From Amia ocellicauda (taxonomy: Eukaryota > Chordata > Actinopteri > Amiiformes > Amiidae): a stretch of 64,000 bases of DNA. The DNA is taken from NCBI RefSeq assembly GCF_036373705.1, contig NC_089858.1:33878249-33942248 (forward strand), read 5' to 3'. A program made the translations under genes and the position numbers. The notes beneath the pieces were generated by a model. It made no database searches and was not told the DNA's origin. It saw nothing but the letters and a program-made list of their open reading frames with translations. Of this stretch, positions 8,238 through 37,281 are shown one piece after another. Each line of letters starts with the position of its first letter. Position 1 is the stretch's first letter.

Positions 8238-8273
<36 letters not shown>

Positions 8274-9502: not shown

Positions 9503-10744
9503 GGGGGAGTGACTCAGGGACGACCCCCAAGAGTTTTACAAAGACGGAATAAAGGATTTATTTTGGGGGGTGGGGGAGTGCACTGTTGCAGTTTCTCCAC
9601 ATGTCAAAGCCATGCATGTTGTTGAATGGCTCAGGCTCTGTCCCATCACATTCTGCCATGTGTTCCTGCTCTTCTGGACCATAGAAGTCATGTTCACTAA
9701 CGTATTCTCACACACGCGCACTCTGTTTGGAAGGATTTTCAGCCCAGATTACTGTAAAGGCACAGATAATAAAGATTATTTTTTCTGATCTACTTCTCCT
9801 TGATATAAACAGTATGGCAGATGTACGCCTTGACTGTTCTCTCTCAGCTACATTACAGAATGGACCTGCTGAGCATTCATCAGATTACTTCACATCAATA
9901 CTCTGAGACCTCTGAATGAACAATAAACTAATCAATATCAATGCTTTACTGTTTATATGACTCTGGACTTTCAACTGTGATGGGGTTGTGTGTGCGAGTG
10001 TGTGTCTGTGTGTGGGCGTGTGCGGGTGTGTGTGAAATGTAACACAAACCAGCTGGGGGAGGTTGGGAGCTGGAGTCAGTGATGTAAATATATTTTAATG
10101 GCACGAGAGTCAAAAGTGCTCCGGTTGAGACGTGTGTATTTGCTTTAATCATAAATCCACCAAAACTCATTGGCAAAATAGTGGAGCCAAAAACACTGGG
10201 CAAGAGGCCGGAGTGCTGTTGAGGTAGCCTCTGTGTGCACAAACATATTTTAAGTATTGTGAAAACATGTTGGAGGATAATGAAAACTGATAATTTCTGG
10301 TTATTGACCAATTCTCTTTGCACAAACATTCAAAGGGTTCAATTTGAAAGCAGTTTTAAGAAATCTGAATTCCATCTCTCAAAAGCTTTCCGATAATGTT
10401 GACTCATGAATGTTATGTTCTCTGCAGCTGAAGCAGCTCTGTATACAAGATCAAGGCTTGGTTAGGGTTTACAGTTCTCTGTTACATGAATACTAACATT
10501 ACTGTCACATGTGGTCCAATTCTTATTCAAGATGACGTGATCAGCTTCTCATAAGTGGCTTGGTTAGTTTTCATTTCTGAAAACTTTAAAGCAAGACCAC
10601 ATTGTCTCAAATTTATCCAGTGTGTTTTTATTTATTTTTTATTTTTTGTATAGGTTTCCTGTTCCTCTTCATGTGCTCGTCCACAGTTTTAGAGAAACAC
10701 TTGTCATTGCTTAGATCTTTGTTGACTTTCAGCCTCACAAAATC
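9503..10744. other. 3' flank of copy B and 5' flank of copy C
   Basis: No coding segment is seen. A GT-rich tract lies near 9983-10032. From about 10310 to 10744 the DNA is nearly identical to 25195-25621 upstream of copy D (for example GCACAAACATTCAAAGGGTT and GCTTTCCGATAATGTTGACT), so copies C and D share their presumed promoter and 5' UTR. Confidence 0.6.
9768..9773 (+). promoter_or_regulatory. AATAAA polyadenylation signal, receptor copy B
   Basis: Canonical signal about 265 bases after the tail stop of copy B. Confidence 0.45.
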
Positions 10745-13700
10745 ATGATCTTCCAATTGTATTTTCTAGTTCTGAGTGAGTATGTTTTCTTTTTTCATTG
10801 CCAGTATTATTTAAACAAGAATTAATGTTTTTACAAATGCTGTTGCTCTTAATTTTAATCGTATTATCTCACACTGTATGTCTTGCAATTATTAACTGAT
10901 ATTTACATTGACAATTACAGTTGGGGTTGAACTGGGACCAGTACATGCAGGTATGTTACGGTTATTATTATTTTACTGCTGTATTTACTCATTCGGTGTG
11001 ACTGAACCAGAGGCAGTATGTTCCTCCATGCTGCCCGAGACGTATACTTGTGCTGGATAGGATAGGATACATAGGATTTATAGCAATTGGAGCGTGCTGA
11101 AACTGTAACTGCACCGGTATTAATATAGTGACACAATCAGATAAAACAAAGAAATTCAATGCTTTTGTATCATTTTCATATGCTCTCTGTATCTGTTCTC
11201 TCCAGGGACAACATGCTCATTGGGATAGTGGAGCCTGTGAGGGTCTCATGCGATGTTGTAAAATTAAAAGCCCCAATATTTCAGTTCTTGCATCATCTTG
11301 TTCTAGAGTCAGTATGGATTGTTTATTGCTTCTCTCACAGATGCATCCATTTGTCAAACTTTGTCGTACTACAATATTTTATTATTATTAGTTGTAGCAG
11401 TAGTAGTAGAAGTAGTAATCTTATGAATTATTATCAATATTACTTCACTGTAAGTCAACACCACATGTAATTAACAGGCTTCCATGTGTTTGACCCACAG
11501 AATTGCGTACGACACTCTCTATTGAAGCAGTGCAAAAGCTCTTTAATATAGAAGACAGTGTTGTTTTTCGCTGTCAGTCTAACAAGGGATCACTCTGCCA
11601 TTTATACACCGATGGAAGCCAAGTCCCTTTCAGATCAGTGCCATTCAGGACAGAGTACCAGCACTGTCACCTCTCTGTGTCTGCGGAGGAGCTGCTGGAG
11701 GAGAGAGGCTCTCAGCTCCGCACTGAGGTCTCTGTGAGCTGCGCTGTGGAACTGACGATGGATGGAGAACCAAATATTGTTCACTACAGTGACACTGTGA
11801 CAGTAGAGATAGCTGGTGAGTCAGCTGCTTGTCACAATTTTAATGTCTGCAATTGTACGATATTATTATTTCAAATGTATTATGTTTTTTAGCAGACATG
11901 TCACTGTTAACTGAATTATATCATCACTTATTGTTTATATTTGAATAAAAAAAGCAGAGACGGATCTTCTGTTTGCATTTCCCACAGACAGGTTTAGCAA
12001 ATTTGGAAGACCTCGTGTTGAAGTGGATCCCCAGCTTGTCAACGAAGACGACCTCATCCGAGTGCTCTGTCTCGCTGGGACAGGAATGCGCTGCTTCTTC
12101 TACAATGGCAACAACAAAATGCCATTCAATGCAGTGGTGTTCAATGAGACGTCAAAGGCTTGCAGCCTGACTGTGCTGGGGAAGGATCTGCCGTCAGAGA
12201 GACACAGAGGGAACAGCTCTGAGACCCTGCTGAGCTGTGCTGTGGAGGCGAAGCTCGGGGAATCCACAGTGAAGTCACGACGCAGCGAGAGCGTCAAGGT
12301 AGAGGTGGTTGGCAAAGGTTAGTGACAACATAAGACTATTAATTCTCCCCTTTATTTTTTTTGTTCACCCCTTTTATCATTTTAAATACTCACTCCTGGA
12401 CTAAATCAATAATTAAACTTTGATCCATTCACCCTGCCAGTCCAGCCAAAGAAGAACATTTTGGAAAAAAAAATGTGCCGCATTTGCCAGGTTGGATTGG
12501 CAGACAGTTCAGAGTTCTGATTGAATCCGAGTCTCAGTTGAACATTTCAAACCACAGTCCAGATACTGTAGATTTGCTCTTGTGAACCGATCGCAGATTT
12601 CATTTAATGTGCAAATCATTCAGTGTTTTGTCTGGTCTGCAGGTCCGCGTGCAACTGAGGAGACTACAGTAGAAACTGGTGAGTTTACATTTGTCCTGTG
12701 TTAAAAAGGCAGGGCAATGAGATATTAACTCCATTGTAAGACTGCGGTGTTTGTGAGCTGTGCTGTTGATGTGAGAATGGAGGGACACAGTGTAAACTCA
12801 CCTGGAAGCCAGAACAGGAGAATAGAGGTTACCAGAGGGTCTTCATCATTTACAGTGGCTCTCAAAAGTATTCACAACCCTTGTGGACTTTTCCACATTT
12901 CATTGTTACAACATGAAATCAGAATGGATTTAATCAGGAGTTTCTGCCACTGATCAACACAGCAAATGTCCATAATGTCGAAGTGATACATATCATCTTG
13001 CAGACTTCCAGGATTTCTCTGTACTTTGCTGCATACATTTTGCCCTCTATCTTTACAAGGTTTCCAGGCCCTGATGCAGAGAAGCATCACCATAGCATGA
13101 TGCTGCACCACTGTGCTTCACCGTAGGGATGGTGTTCTCAGGATGGTGTGCGGTGTTAGGCTTGTGCCAAACGTAGTGCTTAGCGTTCAGGCCAAAAATC
13201 TTGATTTTGAGAAGGCTTCATCAGACCATACAATCTTCCTCCACTTGGTCTCAAAATCTCCCACATGACTTATGGTAAACTCTAGCTGAGATTTGATGTG
13301 AGTTTTTTTTCTCTCCCATATAGGCCACTTTTGTGAAGCACCTGGGCTATTGTTGCAATCTGCACAGTGTCTCCCAGCTAAGCTGTGGAAGACTGTAACT
13401 CCTTTAGAGTTGCCATAGGCCCCTTGGTGGCCTCCCTGACTAGTGTCCTTCTCACCCGGATACTCAGTATTTGAGGACGGCCTGATCTAGGCAGATTCAT
13501 AGTTGTGCCATATTCTCTCCATTTCTTAATAATGGACTTTACTGTGCTCTGGGGGATATTCAATGTCTTGGAAATGTTCTTATATCCTACCCCTGATTGA
13601 TTGTTGAAGAGCCTTATTCCGGATTTTCTTTGAATGATTTGGATTTTCATGATGTAGCTTTTGTTAGGAATTGTACTAACCAACTGTCAGACACCCCAGA

Positions 13701-16700
13701 GACAAATGTTTTCACCACAGCTCAATCAATTATGCATTCACGTATTTTCTGTTTTGTATTTGTAATTAATTTAGAACAATTAGCAGATTATATTTTTCAC
13801 TTTGACATTATGGACTTTTTCTATGTTGATCAGTGGCAATGAGTCCAAGGGGGGTGAATACTTTTGAAAGCCACTGTATGCTTCTGAACCTGTAAAAATA
13901 CATTGTTTTTGGTAGCACCACCAGAGGAGAATATATATATTGTTATAGATCTATATATATACACAGCATACACTGGATTCAGGTCATTTTAGGTCAGAAA
14001 GTTAGAAGTCAGAAAATCTGTTTGAATGACACTACAATCTTTCTCTGCAGCTCGCAAACAAATCAACAATTTCTTAAATTTTAATTTAAATTAATAAAAT
14101 GGCATTAATAATGGTGGGGTGGTGAGGGATGGAGGCTCAGAGACAGACTGCAGGTACTAAAACAAGACTTTTATTTATAAAACAAAGGAAACAGGCACGA
14201 GGGCTGAACAAAAGACACCCCAAAACCCAAACTAATAAACAATACAAAAGACACACACAGCTGGTCAATGGACTTCACTCTGCCAAGAAACCCCCAAAAC
14301 ATCAAGCCCAAACAAAACAGCACAAGCAACACTGTGCTGACTCCCACACCCAACCCAACTCCACACCAACACTCACCCTCCTAAGGAGCTCCTGGGAGCT
14401 CATCAGGGTCAGGCAGGGACTGCAATTTTGGTGTCTGTGAGCTGTGCCGTGGAGCTGGTTATAGAGGGAAAAATAATACCCTCCCAGCACAGCAACAAGA
14501 TCACAATAGAGGTGGAGGGTAAGGACACAGGGCTCTGTCTTCATTTCCTTTTCATAAATCTTTCACATTTTCAGTACATGTATATGAATAGTCTTAGCAG
14601 TGTAAACTGTCTCTGTGTTCTTGTGCTCTTCTAAAGTAATGACATCTTTATTTTCTATATAAAACTGCTGCTGCTTTTTTAGTGTATCACTTCCCTCCTA
14701 GATTAGACTTGACAATACATATTACAGGCTGGGGGTTCAAGATTTATGTGAGAATCACTAAATACTAAACTGCTCACTACTACTGATAAGAATACAGTGA
14801 AACTGAACACATATCTATTTATCTTGAACGATAATCCTGTGTTCAATAATACAATTGCACCAGTGCTTTACTCTCATAGCCTAGATGAGCTTTTGTTTTG
14901 TTACAACTCTTGAAGAATCAGACTTCTGGATGTTTCAGGTTAAATTAATAAAATGGTTTGTTTCAATATAAATGATTGTCTTCATAGACTGTAGAAAAAA
15001 GATTAAACACATGTACATTTCAATATCATAGAAGGTGCTGGGTATCGAAAAAGATCATACAATAAAAAGAAAGAAATACCTGCACACTTACTACAGCTCC
15101 AAAAAATAAAAAATATTTATTCAGCCCATGCTTCACGGGTTTTTAGTAACGTTTTGATCTACCAGAGATCTTCATCAGGATATGAAACACATTTGCAAAC
15201 CGTCTGGTTAAATACACAGGTGATTAAAAACACAAATTATTAAATCTCATTAATGAGAGTTAATACACATCATCTTGACACAATTCCATCAAAATACCTG
15301 CTAACATAGTTTCTTTAATAATCATTTTAAGTTGATAAATACCACAAGACACCAGTGGCGGCTGGTGGGGCAATTTTCTGAGGAGGCTGAGGTGTAAATT
15401 GAAATTGATCATTAGCTATGACAAAACAATATTAGACTATCACCTTTTTTGTGATAATTAGGCTCCTATATGCAGATATTATATAAAGATTTGATAACTA
15501 ACAACACATGAGCGAAGCCTAGTTCAGGCCTGGCACTCGGGCAGCGCGTCATCTCGCTCATCATTGTGTAGCTGCTCAGCCCATAGGTTCATGTACGATA
15601 AGGTGGCAGTATAGAAGTTGCACAGATACAGTGAGGGAAAAAAGTATTTGATCCCCTGCTGATTTTGTACGTTTGCCCTCTGACAAAGAAATGATCAGTC
15701 TATAATTTTAATGGTAGGTGTATTTTAACAGTGAGAGAAAGAATAACAACAAGAACATCCAGAAAAACGCATTTCAAAAAGTTATGCATTGATTTGCACG
15801 TTAATAATTGAAATAAGTATTTGATCCCCTATTAATCAGCAAGATTTCTGGCTCCCAGGTGTCTTTTATACAGGTAACGAGCTGAGATTAGGAGCACTCT
15901 CTTAAAGGGAGTGCTCCTAATCTCAGCTCGTTACCTGTATAAAAGACACCTGTCCACAGAAGCAATCAATCAATCAGATTCCAAACTCTCCACCATGGCC
16001 AAGACCAAAGAGCTGTCCAAGGATGTCAGGGACAAGATTGTAGACCTACACAAGGCTGGAATGGGCTACAAGACCATCGCCAAGCAGATTGGTGAGAAGG
16101 TGACAACAGTTGGTGCGATTTTTCGCAAATGGAAGAAACACAAAATAACTGTCAGTCTCCCTCGGTCTGGGGCTCAATGCAAGATCTCACCTCGTGGAGT
16201 TTCAATGATCATGAGAACAGTGAGGAATCAGCCCAGATCTACACGGGAGGATCCTGTTAATGATCTCAAGGCAGCTGGGACCATAGTCACCAAGAAAACA
16301 ATTGGTAACACACTACGCCATAAAGGACTGAAATCCTGCAGCGCCCGCAAGGTCCTGCTGCTCAAGAAAGCACATGTACAGGCCCATCTGAAGTTTGCCA
16401 ATGAACATCTGAATGATTCAGAGGAGAAGTGGGTGAAAGTGTTGTGGTCAGATGAGACCAACATCGAGCTCTTTGGCATCAACTCAACTCGCCGTGTTTG
16501 GAGGAGGAGGAATGACCCCAAGAACACCATCCCCACCGTCAATCATGGAGGTGGAAACATTATGCTTTGAGGGTGTTTTTCTGCTAAGGGGACAGGACAA
16601 CTGCACCACATCAAAGGGACGATGGACGGGGCCATGTACCGTCAAATCTTGGGTGAGAACCTCCTTCCCTCAGCCAGGGCATTGAAAATGGGTCGTGGAT

Positions 16701-19700
16701 GGGTATTCCAGCATGACAATGACCCAAAACATACAGCCAAGGCAACAAAGGAGTGGCTCGAGAAGAAGCACATTAAGGTCCTGGAGTGGCCTAGCCAGTC
16801 TCCAGACCTTAATCCTATAGAAAATCTGTGGAGGGAGCTGAAGGTTTGAGTTGCCAAACGTCAGCCTCGAAACCTTAATGACTTGGAGAGGATCTGCAAA
16901 GAGGAGTGGGACAAAATCCCTCCTGAGATGTGTGCAAATCTGGTGACCAACTACAAGAAACGTCTGACCTGTGTGATTGCCAACAAGGGTTTTGCCACCA
17001 AGTACTAAGTCGAAGGGGTCAAATACTTATTTCCCTCATTAACATGCAAATCAATTTATAACTTTTTTGAAATGCGTTTTTTTTCGGGATTTTTTTGTTG
17101 TTATTCTGTCTCTCACTGTTAAAATACACCTACCATTAAAATTATAGACTGATCATTTCTTTGTCAGTGGGCAAACGTACAAAATCAGCAGGGGATCAAA
17201 TACTTTTTTCCCTCACTGTACGCGTACACTCACCATCCCTTGCTGTATTATTCTGTGCTTCTGCCACCCTCCACCATCCCCATCTCCTCCGTGTTGTCTG
17301 TATGTTGCTATCAATCAGGGGGATTTTTACTCTATTTGCTTCCTGTCTCATTTTCTATGTATGTGCTCGCTAATGCTAGAGGCAGGGAGTGCTTCATCTG
17401 TGTACATCCAGTCTGCCAAAGTCCAACCTATTTCCATGTCTATCGTATCAATAAATGGTCAAATCAAGACGTGAGTTTCTTGACTGAACTTAAATCTTGC
17501 CCATCACCAACACTTGTCAAAGTAGAAAATTATTAGAACAAATCACAGTGTTGTCTATAGACTATTATCAATCCAATACAATAATTTATTAAAGTGTGAA
17601 TGGAGGGCCCCATTCGGTCTAACATTTCTACTCCCCTATTTGTAGATGAACTCCATCCTCCGCTCCTTCATTATCACAAATTTATAAATTAAAGTTCTAC
17701 AAAAACTGCTCCGTCCTCCCTGTTATAGTGTAATACTAAGTTCTGGAGTTGGTCACCCAGCATTTTTTATTTCTAATTGCTGATCAAATGGTAGCTTTCC
17801 AAAATTATTTTGTAACAAATAATCCACACTAGCAATTACAGCCATGTTGGCTAAAGTGAGGTTTTGCCGCTCTCTCTCCCAACCACTGGCAGGCTTGTTT
17901 CAATGTTATAATGGAAGCTAATTGGTTTAGGAATGGGAGATCAATGCTTATTGGTTATTTATGCTGAAGGAGGCACAATTCAATTTGCCTCCCTTCTGCC
18001 TTTTCTGAAAGCGTTTTTGATGGAAACAAATGACGTTGCAATATTTGAACATCCATTCTAATTGGTCAATTTAGTAACGACAGGAGCCATTATGCTTTCA
18101 GCCTCCTCTGGCCTGCGTGCAATACGATCAATGAATATGGGCGTACGATATCGCCTGCGTATCTTGGAAAATGTAAAAGAGAAAAAATCTCTATATATAT
18201 TATGGTCATCGTCATCAAGGTATGAACAATTTTGTAAGAAATTTTATTGCTTTAATTACGATCATTTCTGAGTAATTTTTAAGGAGGCTCAGCCTCCCTT
18301 GCCTCCTCTGACCAGCTGCCACTGCAAGACACAGGTTTAAATCATTAAGTCATGGCACAAGAAATCACACATTAATAAATACACAAGATACATGCAATTT
18401 AATTTAAACCAGTTAAACATCAGCAAGGGTTATTTTCTTGTATTTTTAAAGATTAATCATATCCCTAATAAAATCCATACAAGTTTACAAATATATTTTC
18501 CCACACAAAAAAGGTTTTAAATCAAATTCTTCATTAAGTCCTTTGGGAGACATTGTATTTAAATAGTAAATCCAAAATGTCTCTCAGCATAACAGAAATC
18601 AATGTCCCCCCCTTCTTGATGTCTTATGGCATTCAATCCCTATATATTTTAAGGATGCAATAGGGATGTTTTCTCTGTAAAAAATGTAGTGCCACTGCAT
18701 TCAATAAGTCTTGTCTATGTATGCTGCTTCTGTGTTCGCTGATCCTAGTCTTAAGACTCCTTTTTCTTTTACCAATGTATGCTAGACCACAGGGACATTT
18801 AATCATATAAATAACATTTTGTGTATTATGAGTGATAATGCCTTTAATTGCAATATTTGTTACCAGATACAGGATGACAAAATGAGGAACATTTGTAGGT
18901 AAAGTTACATTGTGTACAGTGTCAACACTTATAATTACCATCAGGGATATCGCTAAATGCAGGGGCGGTCCTTGAAAATCTCTTTAAAAGAAGGGTCAGA
19001 ATTTATGATGTGCTAGTGTTGTCTAATAACCTTCTTAGAATTGAGTCCTAAATATGAATATTTTTTAATACATTGTACTGGTTGAACATGTTCCATCTTT
19101 TCTTTAGGTTGTAAATTATCTGTGAGATAGAAATAAATTTATGAGTTGCCGCGTCTATACAGTCTTCATAGATCAACATGTTACATTCACAAACATAATA
19201 GGTTCTCGTGTTCCAGGTGTTACTGAGTCACAGTTCTCTACACCTGAGAGAGGTGAGTATCTGTCCGGGGTCAGAGAGTGTGCAGTGAGCTGCAGTGAGA
19301 GTTTTATACTGATGAATTGTATTCTTTATTTATCTATCTTGCACCTCAGGGCAAATTGCTGCATCTCTGTGGTGGGGGGCTGGCGCTGGACTGCTCCTGA
19401 TGACTGCAGCAGTTCTGATCCCCTGTGTTCTCAGACACTGTGCGTAGATCTCCATCACTCTGACAGTACTGGCAGCTCTTCCCGCTCTGTGCAGCAGTCA
19501 CTGTCAAACTGAAACTGTTTCTCATAGAGACGTTTCACTTCATATTCCCTGCTGTAATGTGTGAATACAAATCACTGTTCCCCATATGAAAATGCTCATT
19601 CTTCATTAATGGAAAGAAACCTTAAAAGAAACACAAGAGCTTCCTTTATGCTACAACACTTGTTGTTTTCTCTTTTTCAGGGAGAAAAGCTCAAGCTAGT

Positions 19701-20748
19701 GAAAGGTGAGGATCCACTTCTAGAATTCCTATAAACCTTGATAACAAACAGAATCAGTGATTTTCTAAATGAATCCTTGACAAAGGATTCCTTTCCATAA
19801 CAGAAATCTCCATTAAAGAAATACATATTTTTATATTAATGGGTTATTTCCTTAAAACATGTATGGATCTATTTATTCATATTTAATTTCCCTTGCCTTA
19901 AAAGTACTATTTGATTTTCCATTTTGTCACCTGTTTAAAGACATACATGATTGTATATATATTTGCAAAAGTAAAAACATCACCAGACCCATTATATTAT
20001 ATTTAAACATATACATATATGTATTATATTTAAATATAATGGGTCTGGTGATGTTTTTACTTTTGCAAATTACAGAACAGAAGTTGATTAGTCTGTAGGT
20101 CTTACTCTATTAAATGTCTTCTTCAGCAGGATTCAGGGAAATGGATACACTTTGGATGTCTGTGAATGTAAGTAGTTGCAGAAAAGCCTTGACAGACTCC
20201 CGAAAAGTGTCATTCTGTGCATCGTGTGTTAAATATGCAGATTTGCAATCCTTGCTTTTATTGTTGTGTTTCAGATGCCACTATCACTGCAGTACAACAA
20301 CAGCCTGAACCGGTAAGCAGATGCTTGAAAACATTTCTGAATTGGATATAATGAAAGATAATTATTTTATTGTCAGTTCCAACTGACGATGAGAAATTCA
20401 CATGAACACCAAACAGCTGTTGCTAAACAGGTTACTTCCCTGCTGACAAACAAACAATTAGCCCATTTGAAGTCATATTTCACTGACAGTGTATTTATAG
20501 GTTAGCGCAACAGTCTTGGTTCATACACTCACTGGCTACAGGCAGGGTTTTTTATAGCAGTGGTTAAGTTGCTCTCAGATGCACTCAGCCTCTAAGAAAC
20601 GTTTCCCCTTCATTGGTCTCCTCAGTGTCTACAGGAGGTCAACACCGAAGTGTTGTACAGCACTGTGCAATACAAAAAACACCCGAAGAACGTATCCAGA
20701 GAGATTCAGTTTCAAGAGCAATCTGAATACGCCACCACAATGTACTGA
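10745..20748 (+). CDS. Receptor copy C: two-domain Ig-like transmembrane receptor with ITIM-type tail
   Basis: Eleven exons join in frame with canonical GT-AG borders: 10745-10775, 10921-10950, 11501-11815, 11988-12317, 12643-12678, 19217-19252, 19350-19439, 19681-19705, 20130-20167, 20275-20312 and 20626-20748. They give 363 residues. Residues 1-20 are a signal peptide ([10 protein letters not shown]...). Ig-like domain 1 spans 21-125 and domain 2 spans 126-235, each with four cysteines. The stalk is 236-259. The membrane segment (260-289) contains [18 protein letters not shown]. The tail (290-363) carries CEYATI (Y311), a strict ITIM VLYSTV (Y334) and SEYATTMY (Y358, Y363). ITIMs recruit SH2 phosphatases, so an inhibitory leukocyte receptor is the natural reading. 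The 6.5-kb intron before 19217 is filled with transposons, and a stalk exon present in copy B has been deleted from it. The ligand and orthology are unknown. Confidence 0.74.
12738..12836 (+). pseudogene. Half Ig-like domain fragment in copy C intron
   Basis: The frame reads [17 protein letters not shown] and ends NRRIEV, matching only the last two strands of the family's Ig-like domain. No acceptor and no first half are present. It abuts a Tc1 relic that begins at 12853. Confidence 0.6.
12853..13876 (-). mobile_element. Tc1-like transposon relic (1,024 bp)
   Basis: TA dinucleotides flank inverted ends CAGTGGCTCTCAAAAGTATT and, on the right, AATACTTTTGAAAGCCACTG. On the minus strand 13683-13378 reads [20 protein letters not shown] and [11 protein letters not shown], the paired DNA-binding domain and GRPR-like hook of Tc1 transposases. 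The catalytic part is shortened and full of frame breaks, so it is inactive. Confidence 0.85.
14125..14425. other. Unidentified insertion before the second half Ig-like fragment
   Basis: This A- and C-rich block (ACAAGACTTTTATTTATAAA, then CACACCCAACCC) has no counterpart in the other receptor copies and no coding signal. Its class was not recognised. Confidence 0.35.
14426..14518 (+). pseudogene. Second half Ig-like domain fragment in copy C intron
   Basis: The frame reads [18 protein letters not shown] and ends ITIEVEG, followed by a GT donor context. It corresponds to the last strands of the receptor's Ig-like domain; the first half is replaced by unrelated DNA. Copy C therefore once had more Ig-like exons than the two it retains. 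Confidence 0.62.
15857..15951. repeat. Perfect 43-bp inverted repeat upstream of the Tc1 transposase
   Basis: Arms 15857-15899 and 15909-15951 are exact reverse complements separated by 9 bases. Each arm contains a TATA-box-like TATAAAAGACACC or its complement, so the transposase leader is mirrored. Confidence 0.9.
15938..15944 (+). promoter_or_regulatory. TATA box of the Tc1 transposase gene
   Basis: TATAAAA lies 51 bases before the transposase ATG, in the right arm of the inverted repeat. Confidence 0.55.
15995..17008 (+). pseudogene. Tc1 transposase with two in-frame stops
   Basis: From ATG at 15995 (in the context CCACCATGG) the frame is continuous to TAA at 17006-17008 over 337 codons, except for TGA at 16568-16570 (replacing the Trp of the MLWGCF motif) and TGA at 16847-16849 (a CGA-to-TGA type change). 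Paired-type helix-turn-helix segments lie at residues 1-110 ([12 protein letters not shown]). The catalytic core includes VLWSDETN (first Asp), HDNDPKHTA (second Asp) and [11 protein letters not shown] (Glu). The product cuts and rejoins element ends. The two stops make it inactive. Confidence 0.92.
18633..18941 (-). pseudogene. GIY-YIG endonuclease domain of a Penelope-like element
   Basis: About 100 residues remain, with the VIY and AYIG strands, the [11 protein letters not shown] helix with Arg, and a terminal [13 protein letters not shown] segment. This domain cuts target DNA during retroposition. The upstream reverse transcriptase part is gone, so this is a relic rather than a host gene. 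Confidence 0.72.
19961..20070. repeat. 110-bp hairpin (38-bp perfect arms)
   Basis: Arms 19961-19998 and 20033-20070 are exact reverse complements beginning ATTTGCAAAAGTAAAAACAT, with a 34-base AT-rich loop. It lies in an intron of receptor copy C, about 60 bases before the 38-nt tail exon at 20130. It is probably a small palindromic MITE. Confidence 0.88.
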
Positions 20749-22582
20749 GGGAAAGTGAGTCAGAGACGACCCCCAAGAAGTGCGCCCCATGATCCAAGCA
20801 AGGAATAACGTTTTTTTTTTGGGGGGGGGGTGTGTGCACTGCAGCAATTTGCATGTTGTTGAATGGCTCAGCTCCTGTCCAGTCACATTCTGCAATGTGT
20901 TCCTGTTCTTCTGGACCATAGAAGTTGTGTGTTTAACATATCATCAGACTTGTAGTCGAGTCACCATAGTTTGGGTCCAAGTCCAAGTCCTTGACTTCCA
21001 AGACTCAAATCTGAAGTTGAATTTCACTTATGAACACTTATTATTAAGAGATAGCCCAAATTACAAAGATTAAAGCTTAGTTGTACTGTTTCTCCATTGG
21101 GACTTTATTGTTTATTTATGTTCCTAACATTATCAACATGAAAAAAATAAATCTAAACTGTGTAAGAGACCATTTCCACTGTACATTGTCCTAATGATAT
21201 ACTTAACTCTAGTTAATACAAGTAATCAAAAGAAAATGTTCTATACAAATACAAAATTGTTGTAGTCACCCTGCACAATGTTATATATTATTATACAATT
21301 ATATAATGCTATTATATATAAAATTGTATTTATGACCTTGAAAACCTGTATGCCTTACACTTAAAAGAAAAAACAAATAATAATTTAACCCCAGTCTGCT
21401 ACTTGCCCTAAACCAGACACAAACCTGTGGAATTAGCCCACTGACTCGTTAAACAGCAACAGATCCCGGGTGTAGCACTGAGGTGGTGAAATCCGACACA
21501 AATCCCATATATGATTTGACTAACAAAATATTGAGTCCCCACTCTGAGCAATATGCACACTAGTCAAACATGCAGGTCAGTGCAATACTTATGTAATAAT
21601 TATGACACTGACAACAGGCACATAACATAATCAAACTTGCAGTTCAAAATAGCGACAGTCCCAAAACTATTTCTGATCGATTTGTATGCATAAATTAAAA
21701 TAGGGGCAACCTAAGGACCACCTAAGAGACAGGACAAGCCCAAGAAAAAGGGAGTAACATTGATCCACAAATCAAAAAAAGATGCACTAAACCAATACTA
21801 GTGAAGCATAACCCGATTCCAAGATTGTTTTTTGCAACAATTGGCAAGGTTAAATTATAATGCTGATGGGCACTGAACCACAACTACTACATATGTACTA
21901 TATTACTATATCCGTGTCTTTGAAGATTGTTGAAATGTGTAATTTAAGTTGGGGTAGATGTTATTTCAGCCTGTTTCTTGTTAAAGTTTTGCAATATTTG
22001 AGGGAAAAAATACAAACATTGGAATAACTAACATTTGTTTTCCCATATGAAACTCTGGTGTACCTGTGTCTGCAGTATTGGTCTTGTATACATACACTTT
22101 TTCCCCAAAGTACTTTACCATTGTATGAAGTGTAAGTTGTTCTCTGTTCAACTATACATGACAATACTATGTCTTTCAAGTGTGGTGAACACCTAACATT
22201 GTTTCTAACAGAGGAGGTGGACACGTCCAAGAACAACTCTATACATATAACATATTGTTGTCATTACCTTTTCAACCCCCCACAACTGAACAGCAGAAAG
22301 GAGGGAAAAGTGCAGCTATTTCTACAGGATTGGAAAGTGAGGGTCTTCTTCAGTCATTTGGGAAGGCAACTCCAGTACCTCACAGGAAGGGGGAAAAACA
22401 TCTAAATTGCATTATGAAACCATAGACCTATACTGTAATGAGGTACTAAAGAATAAAACAAAACTTTTATTTTTGGCCGACACAATAAACACGTCATATA
22501 TGAAATAACATATGGGACAACATGGCCAACAAAATAAATGACCATGGAGCATGTACAAGAAGAACACGTGACAGAAAAAATA

Positions 22583-22849
22583 TCATAAACAAAAAAGTTT
22601 CCTTGTTTTGTTCTGCCTTTGCTGTTTGACCGCCCGTCTCCCTAAAGCTCCTGTCACTTGATGAAGCACGAGTGACACTGTTGACTGGCTCACCCCATGC
22701 TGATCCCTTCCTGGTCTCTGGAACGATCCAGAGTATCTAGGGCAAATTCCCAGTCCCATTTGAACTTTAATATGGACTGGTATGACAGGAGATCTGGTTG
22801 TCCTCTGAATCTTTTTAATCTCATCATTGGGCGAGTTAAGGAAAGACAT
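22583..22849 (-). pseudogene. PIF/Harbinger-type transposase fragment
   Basis: A minus-strand frame of 88 residues includes YSGSFQR, GRDQHGVSQSTVSLVLHQVT and GALGRRA. The GxxxGVSQSTVSxxLHxVT pattern is the helix-turn-helix region of Harbinger transposases and of HARBI1. The catalytic domain is absent. It is a relic with no sign of host use. Confidence 0.68.
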
Positions 22850-24599
22850 TCTTAAAGATTCTTGGATTTGCCTTTGCTGACCCTCATTATGCTGTTGTAA
22901 TATGCTGTTGGAGGATAATTTGTGCCAAAATAAACAGATAAAAAAATAAATATAATGAATGGAAATTTTCCTTAAAAAGCTAATTAATTAAATAAACATA
23001 ATTAAAAAGACAAAATAAAAATGGAATCTAAATGTATCTAATTATGTATCTATTTTATGTATTTTGTATTTATCTATTTTTAAATTTTGTGACAAATTAT
23101 CTTCCATAGTTATACAGCAGCCTTTATAAGTTAATATGCTGTGAGAGAAAATGCATTTACACCCCCATTTACTGCCAACACCACAGCCCCGTCCAGGATT
23201 TGTTCGAGTTAAGAACAGCTACAACGGGGTGTAAAACTAGGACAGAAAAACAGTCCTTCTTCGCACCTGAAATGTTTGATGAATCACTCCCTTTTCCCTA
23301 CTTAGATAGGCAATGCTATGCAAATAAGGAAATTGTCTTTTTTTTGGATTTCTCAGATCGTGGAAAACAGCACGTATCCTCTTCAGAGTCCTCAGCGTCC
23401 TTTCAAATCTGTATATTACAGTAAGCAGCCCCAGTGTTCATACACGAGCTCACAGAGGATACAGTTTTGTTCCTGTCAGCAAACACTACTTTTAAAAGTA
23501 ATTTGCTTTCGCTATCAATACAGGTAAAAATTGAGGAAATTGTACTTCGAAGGCCTGTAGGAATTTTCAAAATCTTTCCCCTCTTACTTGCTGGCTCCAG
23601 TTCTCTAACCCGCTCCCACACGGTAAAATTTTGCTGTGCTCTCTAACTCCTCCCCCACCTGCTCATCTGCCTGGAGCTCTGAAGGTGCTGGCAAAATATG
23701 TATTCAGCACTTGATTTTAACAACGCTACATTTGTGGTAAAATGAGTAAACCAATAAACCAGCAAAGCACTCTACGTCATTTCGTGGTTGAAATCAAGAT
23801 GCGACGTGGATCAACAAGAATACAATTTCTATTCAACGTTTTTGGCAACAATTCATCAGTCGAAATGTACATTGCTTTCAGGTTGTTGTGAAAAGTGTAG
23901 ATAACAACACAATATCTTCTCATGTACTTCCCCAAACCCAAGCTTTTTTCATGTGTGTATTTTCAGTGACATGCAGGAAATGCACAAACCCTTAAAGAGA
24001 AAAAGTTAAATAAAGCAGTTTATAAGAGTGTATGTATGAGTGTTTATATATAGTAGCATTGTAGGCTTTTTGCTATGTGAATTCACCAACCAAAACAACT
24101 AGGAAGGATTAAGAGGTAAAGCAACAGATTCATTCTGGAGTACTTCAGCTACATCAACACAGCTGAGCTGATGAATCCGAGGCGTATCAGGAAGGGTTTT
24201 CAGCTAATCAGCCAATCAGATGTGAGACAATAATTATTATTTGGTATAGTTAACCAAATGTTAAGGTTACTGTGCAGTGTATTTAGCCTGCTACTTTCAA
24301 TAGTACACTGAACACCAGGATAAATTCATCAACGGTTTTACACCTATTTGCTATTTCAAACACTTTCCGTATTGAATAAAATACAACTTAAAATTAACAT
24401 GCATGTCACCGCACATACAGTTTATTATTATTTATTAAGTGCTTTTACTGGAAGGTTTACATGTTTCATGCAAGTAAAATCATCATAAACCGTGTACTTA
24501 ATACGTAATAAATAAATAAAAACATGATTACCATTTAATTTTTTTAAATTGATTACCTGTAAAAAAAAAAAAGGATTTTCATTCAAATCTATACACTAG

Positions 24600-24715
24600 T
24601 AGCTAATGTGACGTCATCTGTAAATTATGCAAATTAGCACCAACGAAACTTTGAACCTTCGGTAATGTGTCCCAAGCCTTTGAAGGTAAAAATGTACCCT
24701 TCAGGACAGCCCTAC
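24600..24715. repeat. hAT-type MITE terminus
   Basis: Read on the minus strand it starts TAGGGCTGTCCTGAAGGGTA and continues with CTTCAAAGGCTTGGG and ACCGAAGGTTCAAAGTTTCG, typical of non-autonomous hAT ends in fish. The other terminus was not located. Confidence 0.45.
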
Positions 24716-25621
24716 AAAGCATAGTGATTGTCCACACAACATCTTTCTGATCTTGATAGTGTTTGTTATTTATTTATCCTCATACTTTGTAAATAAATAA
24801 TAGCATATGTTAAATTAAGTAGTAATAAATGATAAAGACCTGGCTTTCAACTATGTTGGTTTAGAATTGTTCGTGTGTGTCTGTGTGTGTTTGAGCTTTT
24901 ACCACACATTTGATCGTATCATGTAAATGTAACATCAGAAAGCTGAGGGAGGGGGGGAGCTGGAGGCTGGAGTCAGTTAAGTTAATTCATTTTAACTGCA
25001 AGAGAGTTGAAAGTGCTCCAGTTGAGATGTGTACATTTGATTAATTATAAATCCACCAAAACTCATCAAGGGAAACAAAAACACTCTGCAAGAAGCAGAA
25101 TGCTGTTGACAATAATGTGTACAATAATATTTACAATGTTTGAAAACATGTTTGAAGACTCTGAGAACTGATTCTCATTCTGGTTATTGACCAATTCTCT
25201 TTGCACAAACATTCAAAGGGTTCAATTTGAAAGCAGTTTTAAGAAATCTGAATTCCATCTCTCAAAAGCTTTCCGATAATGTTGACTCATGAATGTTATG
25301 TTCTCTGCTGCTGAAGCAGCTCTGTATACAAGATCAAGGCTTGGTTAGGGTTTACACTTCTCTGTTACATGAATACAAAAATGACTGTCACATGTGGTCC
25401 AATTCTTATTCAAGATAATGTGATCAGCTTCACATAAGTGGCTTGGTTAGTTTTCATTTCTGAAAACTTTAAAGGAAGACCACATCGTCTCAACTTTATC
25501 CAGCGTGTCTTTAGTTTTTTTCTCTCTCAGGTTTCCTGTTCTTCTTTATATGCCGGTCCACAGTTTTAGAGAAACACTTTTCATTTCTTACATCATTATT
25601 AACTTCCAGCCTCCCAAAATC

Positions 25622-25738
25622 ATGATCCTCACAGTGTATTTTCTAGTTCTGAGTAAGTATGTTTTCTTTTTCTTTGCCATTATTATTTAAATATTAATTT
25701 ATATATAAATATATTCATACACATACACACACACACAC

Positions 25739-25803
<65 letters not shown>

Positions 25804-28323
25804 ATTATAATCATATTATCAATTGCAATGGTGAACTGACATAGACTCTTCTGTCACAATTACAGTTGGGGTTGAACTGGGACCAGTACATGCAGGTATG
25901 TTATATATATATATATTTATTTTTTTTGTTTGTTTTTGCTCATTCTGTGTGGACTGAACCAGAGGCAGTATGTTCCTCCATGCTGCCAGAACCATGTACT
26001 TGTGCTGGAGATTCAGTTTACATAGGATTTATACTAATTGGAGCGTGCTGAAAACTGTAACTGCACCGGTATTTATTATAGTGACACAATCAGAGCAAAC
26101 AAAGAAATGCAAAGCTTTTGTATAATTTTCAGATGCTCTCTGTATCTGTTTTTTCAAACATTTTCTTACTACAATATTGTATCATTATTAGCAGTAGTAA
26201 TTATTAATATTACCTCAATATAAGTCAACACCACATGTAATTAACAGGCCTCCATGTGTTTGACCCACAGAATTGCGTACGACACTCTCTATTGAAGCAG
26301 TGCAAAAGCTCTTTAATATAGAAGACAGTGTTGTTTTTCGCTGTCAGTCTAACAAGGGATCACTCTGCCATTTCTACACCGATGGAAGCCAAGTCCCTTT
26401 CAGATCAGTGCCATTCAGGACAGAGTACCAGCACTGTCACATCTCTGTGTCTGCGGAGGAGCTGCTGGGGGAGAGAGGCTCTCAGCTCCGCACTGAGGTC
26501 TCTGTGAGCTGCGCTGTGGAACTGACGATGGATGGAGAACCAAATATTGTTCACTACAGTGACACTGTGACAGTAGAGATAGCTGGTGAGTCAGCTGCTT
26601 GTCACAATTTTAATGTCTGCAAGTGTACGATATTATTATTTCAAATGTATTATGTTTTTTAGCAGACATGTCACTGTTATCTGAGTTATATCATCAGTTA
26701 TTGTTTATATTTTTGAAAAAAAAGAAGAGACGGATCTTCTTTTTTCATTTCCCACAGACAGGTTTAGCAAATTTGGAAGACCTCGTGTTGAAGTGGATCC
26801 CCAGCTTGTCAACGAAGACGACCTCATCCGAGTGCTCTGTCTCGCTGGGACGGGAATGCGCTGCTTCTTCTACAATGGCAACAACAAAATGCCATTCAAT
26901 GCAGTGGTGTTCAATGAGACGTCAAAGGCTTGCAGCCTGACTGTGCTGGGGAAGGATCTGCCGTCAGAGAGACACAGAGGGAACAGCTCGGAGACCCTGC
27001 TGAGCTGTGCTGTGGAGGCGAAGCTGGGGGAATCCACAGTGAAGTCACGACGCAGCGAGAGCGTCAAGGTAGAGGTGGTTGGCAAAGGTTAGTGACAGCA
27101 TAAGACTATTAATTCTCCCCTTTATCGTTATAAATTCTCACTCCTGGACTACATCAAGAATTAAACTTCATGCACCCTGCCAGTCCAGCCAAGGTAGAAA
27201 ATCTGGGCAAACAAAATGTGCCGCATTTGCCAGGTTGGATTGGTGGACGGGTCAGAGTTCTGATTGAATCCGAGCCTCAAACCAGAGTCCAGATACCGTG
27301 AATTTGCTCTTGTGAACCAATCTCAGATTTAATTTTATGTGCAAATAATTCAGTGTGTTGTCTTGTCTGCAGGTCCGCATACCACTAAGGAGAATGGAGT
27401 AGAACCGGGTGAGTTTAAGTACAAGGCAGGGCTATTATATTAACTCCATGAATCTATTAAAATTATAAAATGTATTGTTTTTCCAGGGTTATTATATATC
27501 GGCTGACCACAGAGCACACATAGTAAATAAACAAAAATGAAATTGTTCATGTTCGGTTAGTATTTTACATTCTTCTATTTTTTACATTTCTTTTAAAACA
27601 ACAAACCAATTCAATTGTATCTGAAATTCTTAAGCTCCAGGCGTTAGTCCCCCTTATGTAGCATTACATTTAATTCAGATAAAAAAATCATGTGTCTCAA
27701 TCGTTTTGTTCTTCTCCTGGGTTTCCTTTCCCTCAAAATTAGAGTCTACAACAGTAGCGTTAACAATAAATGTAAAATGTAAACTTTAGGTCCAGATTCT
27801 GTCCTTATTATTTGTGATATATTAGTTTGAGGGAAATTGGAAGTATCAGGATTTTAGGTTATTATATTGGTTTATGTAATTTACTTTATTAGCATTGGTT
27901 TTAAATAAATAATATAAATAAATAACAGGTATTCATTTTGTTTTTGCAGTAGTTAATACGTCCAGTAATTTCACCACCTCTGGAGTTAGTGAGTATCACG
28001 CCGTGCAGAAATTGTTGTTACAATATATTGCACAGTGAAACAACGTATTTTGGTCATGTCTTCAAATATTCATTAAATATATAATAGTAGTACTTTAAAG
28101 TACTACTGTGTAAGTTGTGGTCTTGAGAGCTGATGGTGTTTTTGGCTGTGTCCTCTGCTCTACCTGTCTACCTGCAGTGTTGTTTTCCAGGTCAGTCCTT
28201 TGCGGTTTCGATCGGGGCCGCTTCCGGGGTTTTCCTGTTCGTCCTTCTGGTTGTGCCCGTCAGCTGTCTCAAGCATAGTACGTCACTTCCTCCAGCCCTC
28301 CCAGTGTGCATCCCAGTGCCTAC

Positions 28324-28379
<56 letters not shown>

Positions 28380-28929
28380 GCATTCTGTCGGACTCTATTA
28401 TTTAACAAGATCACATTTGCTTTGTATTTCAGGGAGAAATAGACACAGACAGGACAGGTGAGTTTCATGTCCTATTGCATTGCATTGCATTTATTTAGCC
28501 TATTTGTTTATTTATTTCAACAAAGTCAAATGGGAAATACATAAATGAATGTTGAAATGAATAAATCAATGTAGAAATAATGTAATGAATAAATAAACGT
28601 TCAAATAAATACAGAAAAAAATAAATACATGTTGAAATATGGAAATAGATAAATGTCAATTAATTAATTAATTAAAACATATATTTATTCATGCATTTAT
28701 GTATTTATTTCAACATTTGTGTATTTATTAATTTATTATTTTCTTTGTGTATTTATTTAAAATTTTGACATGGATAGTCCTCCATATCCCTGAACCACAT
28801 TATTGAATAGCAGTTATAATTTGGAGAAGCTGTTTAAAAGCCTAATCACTTTATAATTGTTGTTCTACTCTGATACCATTTAACTTCAGTAAATTATATG
28901 TATATTATATATTATAGGTATATATTATA

Positions 28930-28982
<53 letters not shown>

Positions 28983-31900
28983 TCACCTAAAGGATTATTA
29001 GGAACACCATACTAATACTGTGTTTGACCCCCTTTCGCCTTCAGAACTGCCTTAATTCTATGTGGCATTGATTCAACAAGGTGCTGAAAGCATTCTTTAG
29101 AAATGTTGGCCCATATTGATAGGATAGCATCTTGCAGTTGATGGAGATTTGTGGGATGCACATCCAGGGCACGAAGCTCCCGTTCCACCACATCCCAAAG
29201 ATGCTCTATTGGGTTGAGATCTGGTGACTGTGGGGGCCAGTTTAGTACAGTGAACTCATTGTCATGTTCAAGAAACCAATTTGAAATGATTCGACCTTTG
29301 TGACATGGTGCATTATCCTGCTGGAAGTAGCCATCAGAGGATGGGTACATGGTGGTCATAAAGGGATGGACATGGTCAGAAACAATGCTCAGGTCTGCCG
29401 TGGCATTTAAATGATGCCCAATTGGCACTAAGGGGCCTAAAGTGTGCCAAGAAAACATCCCCCACACCATTACACCACCACCACCAGCCTGCACAGTGGT
29501 AACAAGGCATGATGGATCCATGTTCTCATTCTGTTTACGCCAAATTCTGACTCTACCATCTGAATGTCTCAACAGAAATCGAGACTCATCAGACCAGGCA
29601 ACATTTTTCCAGTCTTCAACTGTCCAATTTTGGTGAGCTTGTGCAAATTGTAGCCTCTTTTTCCTATTTGTAGTGGAGATGAGTGGTACCCGGTGGGGTC
29701 TTCTGCTGTTGTAGCCCATCCGCCTCAAGGTTGTACGTGTTGTGGCTTCACAAATGCTTTGCTGCATACCTCGGTTGTAACGAGTGGTTATTTCAGTCAA
29801 AGTTGCTCTTCTATCAGCTTGAATCAGTTGGCCCATTCTCCTCTGACCTCTAGCATCAACAAGGCATTTTCGCCCCCAGGACTGACGCATACTGGATGTT
29901 TTTCCCTTTTCACACCATTCTTTGTAAACCCTAGAAATGGTTGTGCATGAAAATCCCAGTAACTGAGCAGATGTGAAATACTCAGACTGGCCCGTCTGGC
30001 ACCAACAACCATGCCACGCTCAAAATTGCTTAAATCACCTTTCTTTCCCATTCAGACATTCAGTTTGAAGTTCAGGAGATTGTCTTGACCAGGACCACAC
30101 CCCTAAATGCATTGAAGCAACTGCCATGTGATTGGTTGGTTAGATAATTGCATTAATGAGAAATTGAACAGGTGTTCCTAATAATCCTTTAGGTGAGTGT
30201 ATATATATATATATATATTTATATATATACACCGATCAGCCATAACATTATGACCACCTTCCTAATATTGAGTAGGTCCCCTTTTTGCTGCTAAAACAGC
30301 CCTGACCCGTCGAGGCATGGACTCCACTAGACCTCTGAAGGTGTGCTGTGGTATCTGGCACCAAGACGTTAGCAGCAGATCTTTTAAGTCCTGTAAGTTG
30401 CGAGGTGGGGCCTCCATGGATCGGACTTGTTTGTCCAGCACATCCCACAGATGCTTGATTGGATTGAGATCTGGGGAATTTGGAGGCCAAGTCAACACCT
30501 TGAACTCATGATTCATCAGACCAGGCCACCTTCTTCCATTGCTCCGTGGTCCAGTTCTGATGCTCACGTGCCCATTGTAGGTGCTTTCGGCAGTGGACAG
30601 GGGTCAGCATGGGCACCCTGACTGGTCTGCAGCTATGCAGCCCCATATGCAACAAACTGCGATGCACTGTGTGTTCTGATACAGTCGTCTAGCCATCACA
30701 ATTTGGTCCTTGTCAAAGTCGCTCAGATCCTTAAGCTTGTCCATTTTTCCTGTTTCTAACACATCAACTTTGTGGACAAAATGTTCACTTGCTGCCTAAT
30801 ATATCCCACCCACTGACAGGTGCCATGATAGCAAGATTATCAGTGTTATTCACTTCACCTGTCAGTGGTCATAATGTTATGGCTGATCGCTGTATATGTA
30901 TGTGTATATATATATACATGCATAATAAATCAAAACTGCACATTAGCAATGGAACACACAATGCTGGGCTTGGCTTAAATTTGAAACCTGTTTTATCTAG
31001 CCAACAGCTGCCACAGCCAATTGTCCTGATTAGTTGTATATGACTGAATTATAGGAGTTAGTCTCAAATGAATGCATCGATTAAAAAAAAATATATATAA
31101 TAAATTATACAAATACCTATATATGTATATGTATGTGTGTTCTATGACTTTACAATTAGTTAATGCACTCATGGTTACAAATGCTCAAGTGGAGAGCGTA
31201 TGATGGGGATGAATTGTCACGGGGAGTAATTATCACCGAGATAAATTGTCAGGGACGAAATTGATGTGCTCCCCAGAAAATTACATTTCCATTCACTGAC
31301 AATAACTAAATACAAGATCTTCCCTTTGCAGAAACGAGGACCCAGACTCCAGCTGTTCAGAGGACCATGACTGTAAGTATATAGAGACCAGGCGGACACT
31401 TTGTCTGTGTGTATATGCTACTCAATCCTGCCTGCAAAGTGGTTATGGCTGCATTTCAATTTTACAGAATGTTTCATACTGTATAAACTGATAACTTTCC
31501 GCTTTGGACCGCTATGTGTTGTGTTGATGATTGTTTAATTTGTATTCAAACATAAGCCAAAATTATACCACATGAACCAGCCATAACCACCTTAAGTAGT
31601 TTGTGGCGCAGCCTCCAACAGCAGGTAAGCAAGGTCTCTGAGAGAATTTCAGAGAATTCATTTGTTTTCCAGATTGACCTGTTTCCCAGAGTAATCATTA
31701 GTATCTGTTCTTCATTTTGTTTCCACCAGATGTGAATGTCAGTCCAGATGGTGAGACAGTGGAAGAGCGATATATGAGATCCAAGGTATCACATTTTTAG
31801 CAAAAAATGACATATTTATCGAAAATACAATGGTTTTGGCTAATTTTAAATGGAAGTAAAACTTAAAACTTCAATTAATAACCTGTAATCTATTCAAAAA

Positions 31901-32288
31901 TATTACAGCGTCTGTCAGACATGTTGAATTAATAAAATATTCCTATACATGACATTCAGAAGATTCAGAATTGCTCTACACAGAATAATTTACAACAACA
32001 CTCGATTAACCAGCTTCACTGACCTGTAACCAGTCCGCTGTTGATTAGGTTTTGTTTAGGAAAATAAGCAGTTATTTATAAGATATATCGGTGCAATGAC
32101 TCTCTTGTGTTCTGCAGGAACACCAGGAGACTGGGATTAATAGGCATTACGACAATGTGACACTGCATCAGTCCAAAGAAGAAGACAATCTGCACATCTA
32201 CAATAATGCGGAGTACATGAGTGGCCGTGATCCTGGGCTGGGATCGGTAGAAGCTTCCATTTCTACAGGGAATCGATCTCCACAATGA
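25622..32288 (+). CDS. Receptor copy D: two-domain Ig-like transmembrane receptor with YxN-type tail
   Basis: Eleven exons join in frame with GT-AG borders: 25622-25652, 25866-25895, 26271-26585, 26758-27087, 27373-27408, 27950-27988, 28191-28277, 28433-28457, 31332-31372, 31730-31785 and 32118-32288. They give 386 residues. Signal peptide is 1-20. Ig-like domains are 21-125 (Cys 45, 53, 76, 101) and 126-235 (Cys 153, 161, 184, 209). The stalk is 236-260, with [10 protein letters not shown] glycosylation sites. The membrane segment lies in 261-289 ([12 protein letters not shown]), without charged residues. The tail 290-386 has Y312 (YVNV), Y326, Y341 (YDNV), Y358 (YNNA) and Y363. YxN is the docking form for Grb2-type SH2 adaptors; no strict ITIM is present. 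The ectodomain differs from copy C by three residues in domain 1 and none in domain 2. Intron 8 holds two Tc1 elements. Ligand unknown. Confidence 0.8.
25742..25800. repeat. (AT)n microsatellite in intron 1 of copy D
   Basis: Nearly pure AT dinucleotides. Copy C has no such tract at the homologous place. Confidence 0.95.
28322..28379. repeat. (TTA)n microsatellite
   Basis: Pure trinucleotide tract between the membrane exon and the 25-nt tail exon of copy D. Confidence 0.95.
28918..28979. repeat. AT and (AC)n microsatellite
   Basis: Alternating purine-pyrimidine tract abutting the left end of a Tc1-like element. Confidence 0.9.
28980..30199 (-). mobile_element. Tc1-like transposon (1,220 bp), nearly intact
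   Basis: TA sites flank at 28978-28979 and 30200-30201. The inverted ends are CACTCACCTAAAGGATTATT and AATAATCCTTTAGGTGAGTG. The minus-strand transposase is open apart from one frameshift. A close second copy lies at 39848-40922. Confidence 0.95.
29012..30051 (-). pseudogene. Tc1 transposase with a single frameshift
   Basis: The frame starts at ATG 30051 ([20 protein letters not shown]). It shifts by one base shortly after, around 29965-29990, and continues as one open frame to 29012. The downstream part has [20 protein letters not shown] (first Asp), FQQDNAPCH (second Asp), [17 protein letters not shown] (Glu) and the terminal KGGQTQY. Only the helix-turn-helix region is damaged. The product would move its own family of elements. 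Confidence 0.88.
30230..30892 (-). mobile_element. Tc1-like internally deleted element (663 bp)
   Basis: TA sites flank, and the ends are CACCGATCAGCCATAACATT and the complement AATGTTATGGCTGATCGCTG. On the minus strand it encodes [33 protein letters not shown] and a terminal RGPTQY. The middle of the transposase, with both catalytic Asp residues, is deleted. Only 30 bases of AT repeat separate it from the neighbouring Tc1. Confidence 0.88.
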
Positions 32289-36918: not shown

Positions 36919-37281
36919 TATGTGAACACAAATGCGAATATATAGTATAGAAAACAGTAGATAAGTGCACAAATATATTGATATATACATATATACAAAT
37001 ATGGAAATTAGATCTCCTCAGACACAAACATGTTCTCTCCACTCTCTTCTGTAAACAGCAATCTGATGGCATTTGAACTTTCTATTTTTATGTCTTCCCA
37101 AACAGCAGAAAAGGAATATTGCACCATCCAGTCCAGTCCAGTCCTGTCATCCCACTCCAATTAGTAGCCTGTAGTTCTCCATCACCGGTAAGGGGTTAGC
37201 TTTACACGTACAGCATTGTAATTCCTGTGTCACCTCTCCCCCCCACGTCCCCCACCCACCAGAGTTGGCAGTCGGCTGCGC

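Follow-up and report, generated by a model that had tools for sequence, protein, structure and literature searches.

A linked pair of Amia ocellicauda receptor genes with near-identical ectodomains and different tails: candidate paired receptors probably shaped by gene conversion

Do two neighbouring receptor genes of the fish Amia ocellicauda, which share almost the same ectodomain and carry very different tails, form a pair of leukocyte receptors? The genes, here called C and D, lie in a stretch of 64,000 nucleotides (the window; RefSeq assembly GCF_036373705.1, contig NC_089858.1, hereafter C9, positions 33878249-33942248) within a 988-Mb genome, and coordinates below are window positions unless marked C9. 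A sequence-only reading had proposed them as candidate paired receptors. With modest confidence we favour a reading in which C and D encode type I membrane receptors, look intact as genes, belong to a fish immunoglobulin (Ig) family resembling the KIR, LILR and FcR families and would work as a linked receptor pair; judged from the sequence, pairing appears to be the best reading of their function. What is new beyond the earlier proposal is the gene conversion that appears to lie behind the ectodomain identity, the apparently chimeric make-up of C, and the membership of both genes in a family without a sequence match to a Pfam Ig family or to the PDB.

Gene models and the shared ectodomain

Splice sites and reading phase were used to rebuild the models of both genes, which span 10745-20748 (C) and 25622-32288 (D). 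Spliced in silico, each joins 11 exons on the plus strand into one open reading frame with no internal stop, of 364 amino acids in C and 386 in D, with the same exon phases (0-1, then 1-1 six times, 1-2, 2-1, 1-0 and 0-stop). The common layout comprises two signal exons, two Ig exons, two stalk exons, one membrane exon, a 25-nt basic exon, a 41-nt exon, an exon of phase 1-0 and a last exon of phase 0. The signal peptide is encoded by exon 1, which holds the start codon (C, 10745-10775; D, 25622-25652), and exon 2 (C, 10921-10950; D, 25866-25895), Ig-like domain 1 by exon 3 (C, 11501-11815; D, 26271-26585) and Ig-like domain 2 by exon 4 (C, 11988-12317; D, 26758-27087). These are followed by the two stalk exons, 5 (C, 12643-12678; D, 27373-27408) and 6 (C, 19217-19252; D, 27950-27988), by exon 7 for the membrane segment (C, 19350-19439; D, 28191-28277), and by exon 8 for a juxtamembrane stretch that is basic in C (19681-19705) and Arg-rich in D (28433-28457). 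The domain-1 exons of the two genes are 14.8 kb apart on the same strand of one cluster.

The rebuilt models bear out the earlier statement that both ectodomains consist of two Ig-like domains, with three residue differences in domain 1 (L/F, L/I and E/G) and none in domain 2. At the nucleotide level C and D differ by 1.0% in the domain 1 exon and 0.9% in the domain 2 exon, compared with 12.5% in the 5′ flank, 13.9% in intron 2, 6.4% in intron 3, 10.5% in intron 4 and 25% in the stalk exon. Purifying selection on the binding face, rather than conversion, could have kept the two domains alike, and the differences in domain 2 (three synonymous, none non-synonymous) are what it would leave; we nevertheless consider this explanation improbable, as the synonymous sites are nearly identical too. 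Across both domain exons there are three synonymous differences in about 149 sites (0/72 in domain 1), against 171/1,330 in the 5′ flank, intron 2 and intron 4 combined (Fisher p = 1.1e-5). Intron 3 was excluded from this count because it lies inside the low-difference tract, and intron 1 because its alignment is gapped (34% different); including intron 1 would only strengthen the contrast. Since the synonymous sites are nearly identical and the surrounding non-coding DNA is divergent, gene conversion is the best explanation for the likeness of the ectodomains, with a putative tract at 11451-12327 (plus strand; alignment and synonymous test) in the middle of which, at 11910-11975, the sequence is AT-rich and divergent.

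A third copy, E (C9 33863178), suggests when this may have happened. E and C stem from a recent duplication (5′ flank 2.0% and intron 4 0.3% different), yet intron 2 of E is nearer to D (7.8%) than to C (10.8%), and C, D and E are therefore a mosaic. In the domain exons the C-D differences (1.0 and 0.9%) are smaller than the C-E differences (2.6 and 2.1%), that is, 6/645 against 15/640 nucleotides, compared without a significance test. The simplest account of these patterns would be conversion between C and D that was confined to the binding domains and postdates the C/E duplication.

We regard it as unlikely that C and D are instead diverging or decaying paralogues left by a recent tandem duplication in a birth-and-death cluster, sharing an ectodomain without a pairing role. 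The neighbourhood does have this character: transposons and fragments abound throughout the receptor cluster, copy B (4972-9510, upstream of C) is damaged, its Ig exon being cut short, its membrane exon scrambled and its exon 10 interrupted by a stop, copy E has lost 5 nt in its domain-1 exon and is out of phase there, and the last exon of C lacks purifying constraint (below). Simple duplication, however, predicts equal divergence of exons and introns, whereas divergence in the 5′ flank and introns 2 and 4 is over tenfold that of the ectodomain exons, with the synonymous sites following the exons; moreover, the frames of C and D are both open through 11 exons.

A separate observation concerns the 5′ flank, where C and D share a run of 133 bp (10293-10426, matching near 25178) without a single difference in a neighbourhood that is mostly about 12% divergent. 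This block may be a control element common to both genes, another tract of conversion or a repeat.

The family to which these domains belong was not recognisable by sequence. Pfam gave no match for domains 1 and 2 searched singly, and among 18 domains scanned at E ≤ 5, with HMMER filters that drop weak matches, no Ig family was returned and V-set matched 0/18; what the scan did return was weak, namely Sushi (lowest E 0.08) and three other, unrelated families. A PDB sequence search found nothing for domain 1 singly and nothing for the 18-domain profile at E ≤ 10. Assignment to a standard Ig family by sequence was dropped, with no Pfam Ig or PDB sequence match to support it. The predicted structure of domain 1 is nearest to KIR, LILR, PIR-B and OSCAR in the fold model comparison, and antibody V domains are also present in the Foldseek list. 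Domain 2 was fold-modelled as well, and no other fold family heads the list for either domain, which excludes nothing. The models indicate a C2-like Ig fold of the KIR/LILR kind.

The two tails

In C, the tail is encoded by exon 9 (20127-20167), which begins at a tandem CAGCAG acceptor, exon 10 (20275-20312) and exon 11 (20626-20748), the last supported by tblastn as well as by the gene model and ending in the stop codon. Splicing exon 8 directly to exon 10 hits a stop and was rejected; the intervening exon 9, identified via a paralogue at C9 33725.7-33727.2 kb that has the same exon order and an ITIM (immunoreceptor tyrosine-based inhibitory motif) tail, resolves this. Exon 11 carries VLYSTV (Y335), the sole strict ITIM of the tail, and SEYATT (Y359), which has no hydrophobic +3 residue, while CEYATI (Y312) has its YATI across the exon 9/10 junction. 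An alternative acceptor of exon 11 at 20635 would make the tail three residues shorter and retain the ITIM. The sequence-only reading had named a strict VLYSTV ITIM and two further EYAT motifs, all of which are present; its position for the ITIM tyrosine, Y334, is one lower than ours and fits use of the CAGCAG acceptor that drops one residue.

The D tail is encoded by exons 9 (31332-31372), 10 (31730-31785) and 11 (32118-32288, with the stop); in a free splice search exons 8-11 formed the top of 81 chains (score 36.1); in an antisense control 0/150 starts reached 36, yet 138/150 yielded no chain. The tail contains three YxN sites, YVNV (Y312, across the exon 9/10 junction), YDNV (Y341) and YNNA (Y358), and two more tyrosines, each followed by Met, and a motif scan of it found no strict ITIM, no ITAM (immunoreceptor tyrosine-based activation motif) and no YxxM. 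The earlier description of three YxN sites and no ITIM thus agrees with the rebuilt model. So does its account of the membrane segment of D as uncharged; by eye, neither C nor D has a charged residue there, and a DAP12-type partner is therefore not expected for D. Siglec-16, by comparison, relies on a charged membrane residue and DAP12; D differs from it in having its own YxN tail and an uncharged membrane segment, and in its Ig family.

Two inverted repeat arms enclose exons 9-11 of D, and one of the arms holds a transposase of the Tc1/Tc3-Sleeping Beauty type.

The two tails agree only in their exon phases and in the lengths of exons 8 and 9 (25 and 41 nt), and their common descent is possible. 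As a mutated copy of the C tail, the D tail does no better than chance (1,400/2,000 shuffles reach the score), and that derivation was rejected; compared with two paralogue tails it gives a score reached by 923/2,000 and 1,162/2,000 shuffles. The alignment of the C tail with the tail of the paralogue at C9 33725.7-33727.2 kb beats all 2,000 shuffles, a genome-wide search with its 40-residue last exon returned four places, all within the cluster, and tblastn over 288,771 of the 362,248 bases of the cluster region plus window (the coverage of all tblastn searches and of the Ig exon extraction) found six copies of the C-type last exon including C itself, two of them identical over 120 nt. All six fit the ITIM pattern V-x-Y-x-x-[VL] by eye. 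Over 120 nt, the last exon of B has the same sequence as one that lies upstream of E. For D, a genome search with the tail DNA returned only D itself, and tblastn at E ≤ 0.5 found no relative of the tail.

The YxN tail of D points to docking of the Grb2/Gads type rather than an ITAM or DAP12 route. A set of such docking sites would be LAT-like, and we take YVNV of D to resemble the Grb2/Gads sites of LAT and SHC. It is possible, although somewhat unlikely in our judgement, that D is instead a second regulator of the same sign as C, or a scaffold or endocytic receptor, given that YVNV and YDNV could bind several SH2 proteins. Both motifs have a hydrophobic +3 residue and fit Yxx[ILV] as well as YxN, and the catfish receptor IpLITR 1.1b, with ITIMs and a YxN site, is described in the accessible text of PMC4810170 as both inhibiting and stimulating. 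Against such a role, no tyrosine of D lies in a strict ITIM, and three or more YxN sites are rare by chance, arising in 483/100,000 shuffles of the D tail.

Several observations count against a pair of intact, oppositely signalling genes. Donor sites score low after the membrane exon of C (GTGCGT, -0.5) and after the membrane exon (GTACGT, 0.3) and exon 10 (GTATCA, 0.3) of D. The free splice search for C gave two other endings, scoring 40.9 and 40.8, that narrowly outrank the ITIM exon (40.3 through acceptor 20635 and 38.8 through acceptor 20626), so the identification of this exon rests on homology; at least one strict ITIM also arises in 18,527/100,000 shuffles of the C tail, and the motif itself therefore leans on homology too. 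The rest of the C tail shows no purifying constraint in comparison with copy B, the last exons differing by about 20 non-synonymous and 2 synonymous changes (non-synonymous rate dN 0.243 and synonymous rate dS 0.085, over few sites), and the D tail is without a detected relative that could show constraint. Tails with YxN sites dock Grb2-like adaptors, which is not an activating code by itself. Finally, the synonymous contrast on which conversion is based falls to p = 0.06 when set against intron 3 alone.

Make-up of C and its place in the cluster

The region that supplies the long intron and tail of C aligns colinearly with a relative at C9 33838339-33841094. Of the relative's two Ig exons, the aligned parts take in a piece from the end of the first (12746-12801) and the latter half of the second along with the intron that follows (14394-14986); further on they cover the stalk, membrane and exon 8 region (19162-19717), and exons 9-11 (20090-20949). 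Within the intron of C, two fossils on the plus strand mark the displaced ectodomain: the 3′ end of an Ig exon at 12738-12830, colinear with the relative's first Ig exon (C9 33838339), and the 3′ part of another at 14383-14517, colinear with its second (C9 33838908). The membrane exon of C is identical to that of the relative at C9 33839928 in 87/87 compared nucleotides. Because the intron and tail region follows the order of the relative, with its Ig exons wrecked, C looks chimeric: its two-domain cassette stands upstream of what remains of a 33838339-type gene, the Ig exons of which have become fossils, and uses the membrane segment and ITIM tail of that gene.

D carries no such signs. When the window was compared with itself, the part of D beyond its stalk exon matched the tail region of C in transposon pieces only, and tblastn with the membrane and tail exons of C did not match D. 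Two cassette relatives are damaged, with at least one Ig exon not intact in each: that at C9 33729739, where a partial model gives a tail beginning in a non-ITIM sequence (VYDEIS), and that at C9 33750316. Because D lacks chimeric signs and one damaged cassette relative has a non-ITIM tail start, D may represent the older arrangement and C, the ITIM partner, a derived one. For KIR and Ly49 the reverse route applies, with the ITIM partner ancestral.

The domains of C and D belong to a family clustered at one locus. Genome-wide, counting the query itself, at least 42 matches were found for domain 1 of C and at least 41 for domain 2; among the matches listed, all lie on the plus strand of C9 at about 33.60-33.91 Mb (about 300 kb), which places C and D at the right-hand end of one large cluster. 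From 39 intervals, the extraction recovered 32 open Ig exons, a few of them truncated or out of phase, with none in 7 intervals.

Other features of the cluster and window were noted alongside. At the far end of the cluster, paralogues at C9 33637499 and 33685362 have a different type of first domain (GMDSSVELRCDAPHSLSGVQCRFYTE) preceding the common one. A glutamate lies inside the predicted membrane exon (GELL, SELL or AELL) of paralogues at 1605-1700 and at C9 33737108, 33757524, 33821113 and 33849193. Transposases of the Tc1/Tc3 and Sleeping Beauty type occur in and around the receptor genes at 15878-16567, 29015-30019 and 33237-33704, and a fourth (39880-40776) was assigned by its likeness to that at 29015-30019. 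On the minus strand, 37200-41804 holds an unconnected Ig gene that encodes V-set and I-set domains and by eye may be CXADR-like, and exons of a FAD-binding enzyme, amine-oxidase-like by eye, lie on the plus strand at 52800-61500; in a scan of two pieces of the enzyme, FAD/NAD-binding families were matched by the first piece and no family by the second.

Pairing and known paired receptors

If C and D do work as a pair, they would bind the same ligand on leukocytes. On phosphorylation, the tyrosine of VLYSTV in C (and perhaps that of YATI) would recruit phosphatases of the SHP type and damp the cell, whereas phosphorylated YVNV, YDNV and YNNA in D would recruit adaptors of the Grb2/Gads type to D's own tail, with no ITAM partner. 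With alike binding faces, one target could be read both by an arm that inhibits and by an arm that activates or docks adaptors; such a target might be a pathogen imitating the ligand of the inhibitory receptor. The weakest step would be the opposite sign of the D signal, as three sites of the Grb2 type may activate, scaffold or modulate (PMC4810170 and PMC7247439). The paired-receptor proposal of the sequence-only reading holds in part: its near-identical ectodomain and different tails are borne out and joined by close linkage and a conversion signature like that of known paired receptors, and the opposite signalling stands at the level of motifs.

A fuller version of the pair reading we put forward tentatively. 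The family would be an unnamed one that has expanded in this fish lineage and whose fold is KIR/LILR-like, and within it C and D would be a true pair kept alike by conversion. The inhibitory partner would be the derived one, its binding cassette having been transferred to the ITIM tail of a second family member whose Ig exons survive as wreckage in the intron, and the other partner would signal via LAT-like Grb2/Gads sites in its own tail and not via ITAM or DAP12.

Homogenisation of ectodomain exons by gene conversion is a frequent, non-obligatory trait of paired leukocyte receptors, and the pattern in C and D suggests that they have it. In the accessible parts of PMC5701461, Siglec-11 and Siglec-16 of primates, an inhibitory and an activating receptor, have had the likeness of their ligand-binding exons preserved by repeated conversion, an evolutionary signature that C and D would share. 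CEACAM1, CEACAM3 and ITAM-bearing relatives, which owe their likeness to conversion and recombination, include a non-inhibitory partner that signals by its own tail, according to the portions of PMC2832619 at hand; C and D resemble them in the conversion signature and in the own-tail motifs of D, with the difference that CEACAM3 has an ITAM-like motif and D has YxN sites and no ITAM.

Among fish receptors, the catfish IpLITR proteins, with similar Ig domains and different tails, are discussed as a paired-receptor analogue (PMC7404264, available sections), and they combine ITIM logic with YxN sites of the Grb2 type, such that an ITIM receptor with YxN can also stimulate (PMC4810170, available sections). 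The same sections of the two papers contain no pair with near-identical ectodomains, and the likeness to C and D is one of description, not of sequence. This also holds for the FcR-like XFL of Xenopus, which belong to a different vertebrate class and are described, in the excerpt available, as paired FcR/KIR-related families shaped by domain shuffling. In CD300b and CD300f, tail tyrosines dock Grb2 and CD300f also has ITIMs within one family; their domain is IgV-like (PMC7247439, accessible text), and the family is a different one. The salmonid NILT, fish Ig receptors that likewise occur in clusters, have ITIM exons of phase 0, the phase of exon 11 in C and D, and are V-type with CX3C, CX6C or CX7C motifs (accessible text of PMC3022915); the Pfam scan at E ≤ 5, with its filters against weak matches, gave no V-set match for the 18 domains here. 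Searched without a family name, the open-access literature yielded no paper that we recognised as treating this receptor family or two fish receptors paired by nearly identical ectodomains.

Receptor pairs maintained by conversion are already a known kind, of which C and D are a new fish example. If both genes are expressed, they would make a clear fish case of a conversion-maintained pair, as in the Siglecs of primates and the CEACAMs of mammals, from an Ig family that was recognised by sequence in neither Pfam nor the PDB here. The locus would also directly record in the genome how such a pair may arise, with the cassette for binding now attached to another tail and remnants of the ectodomain that it displaced preserved in the intron.

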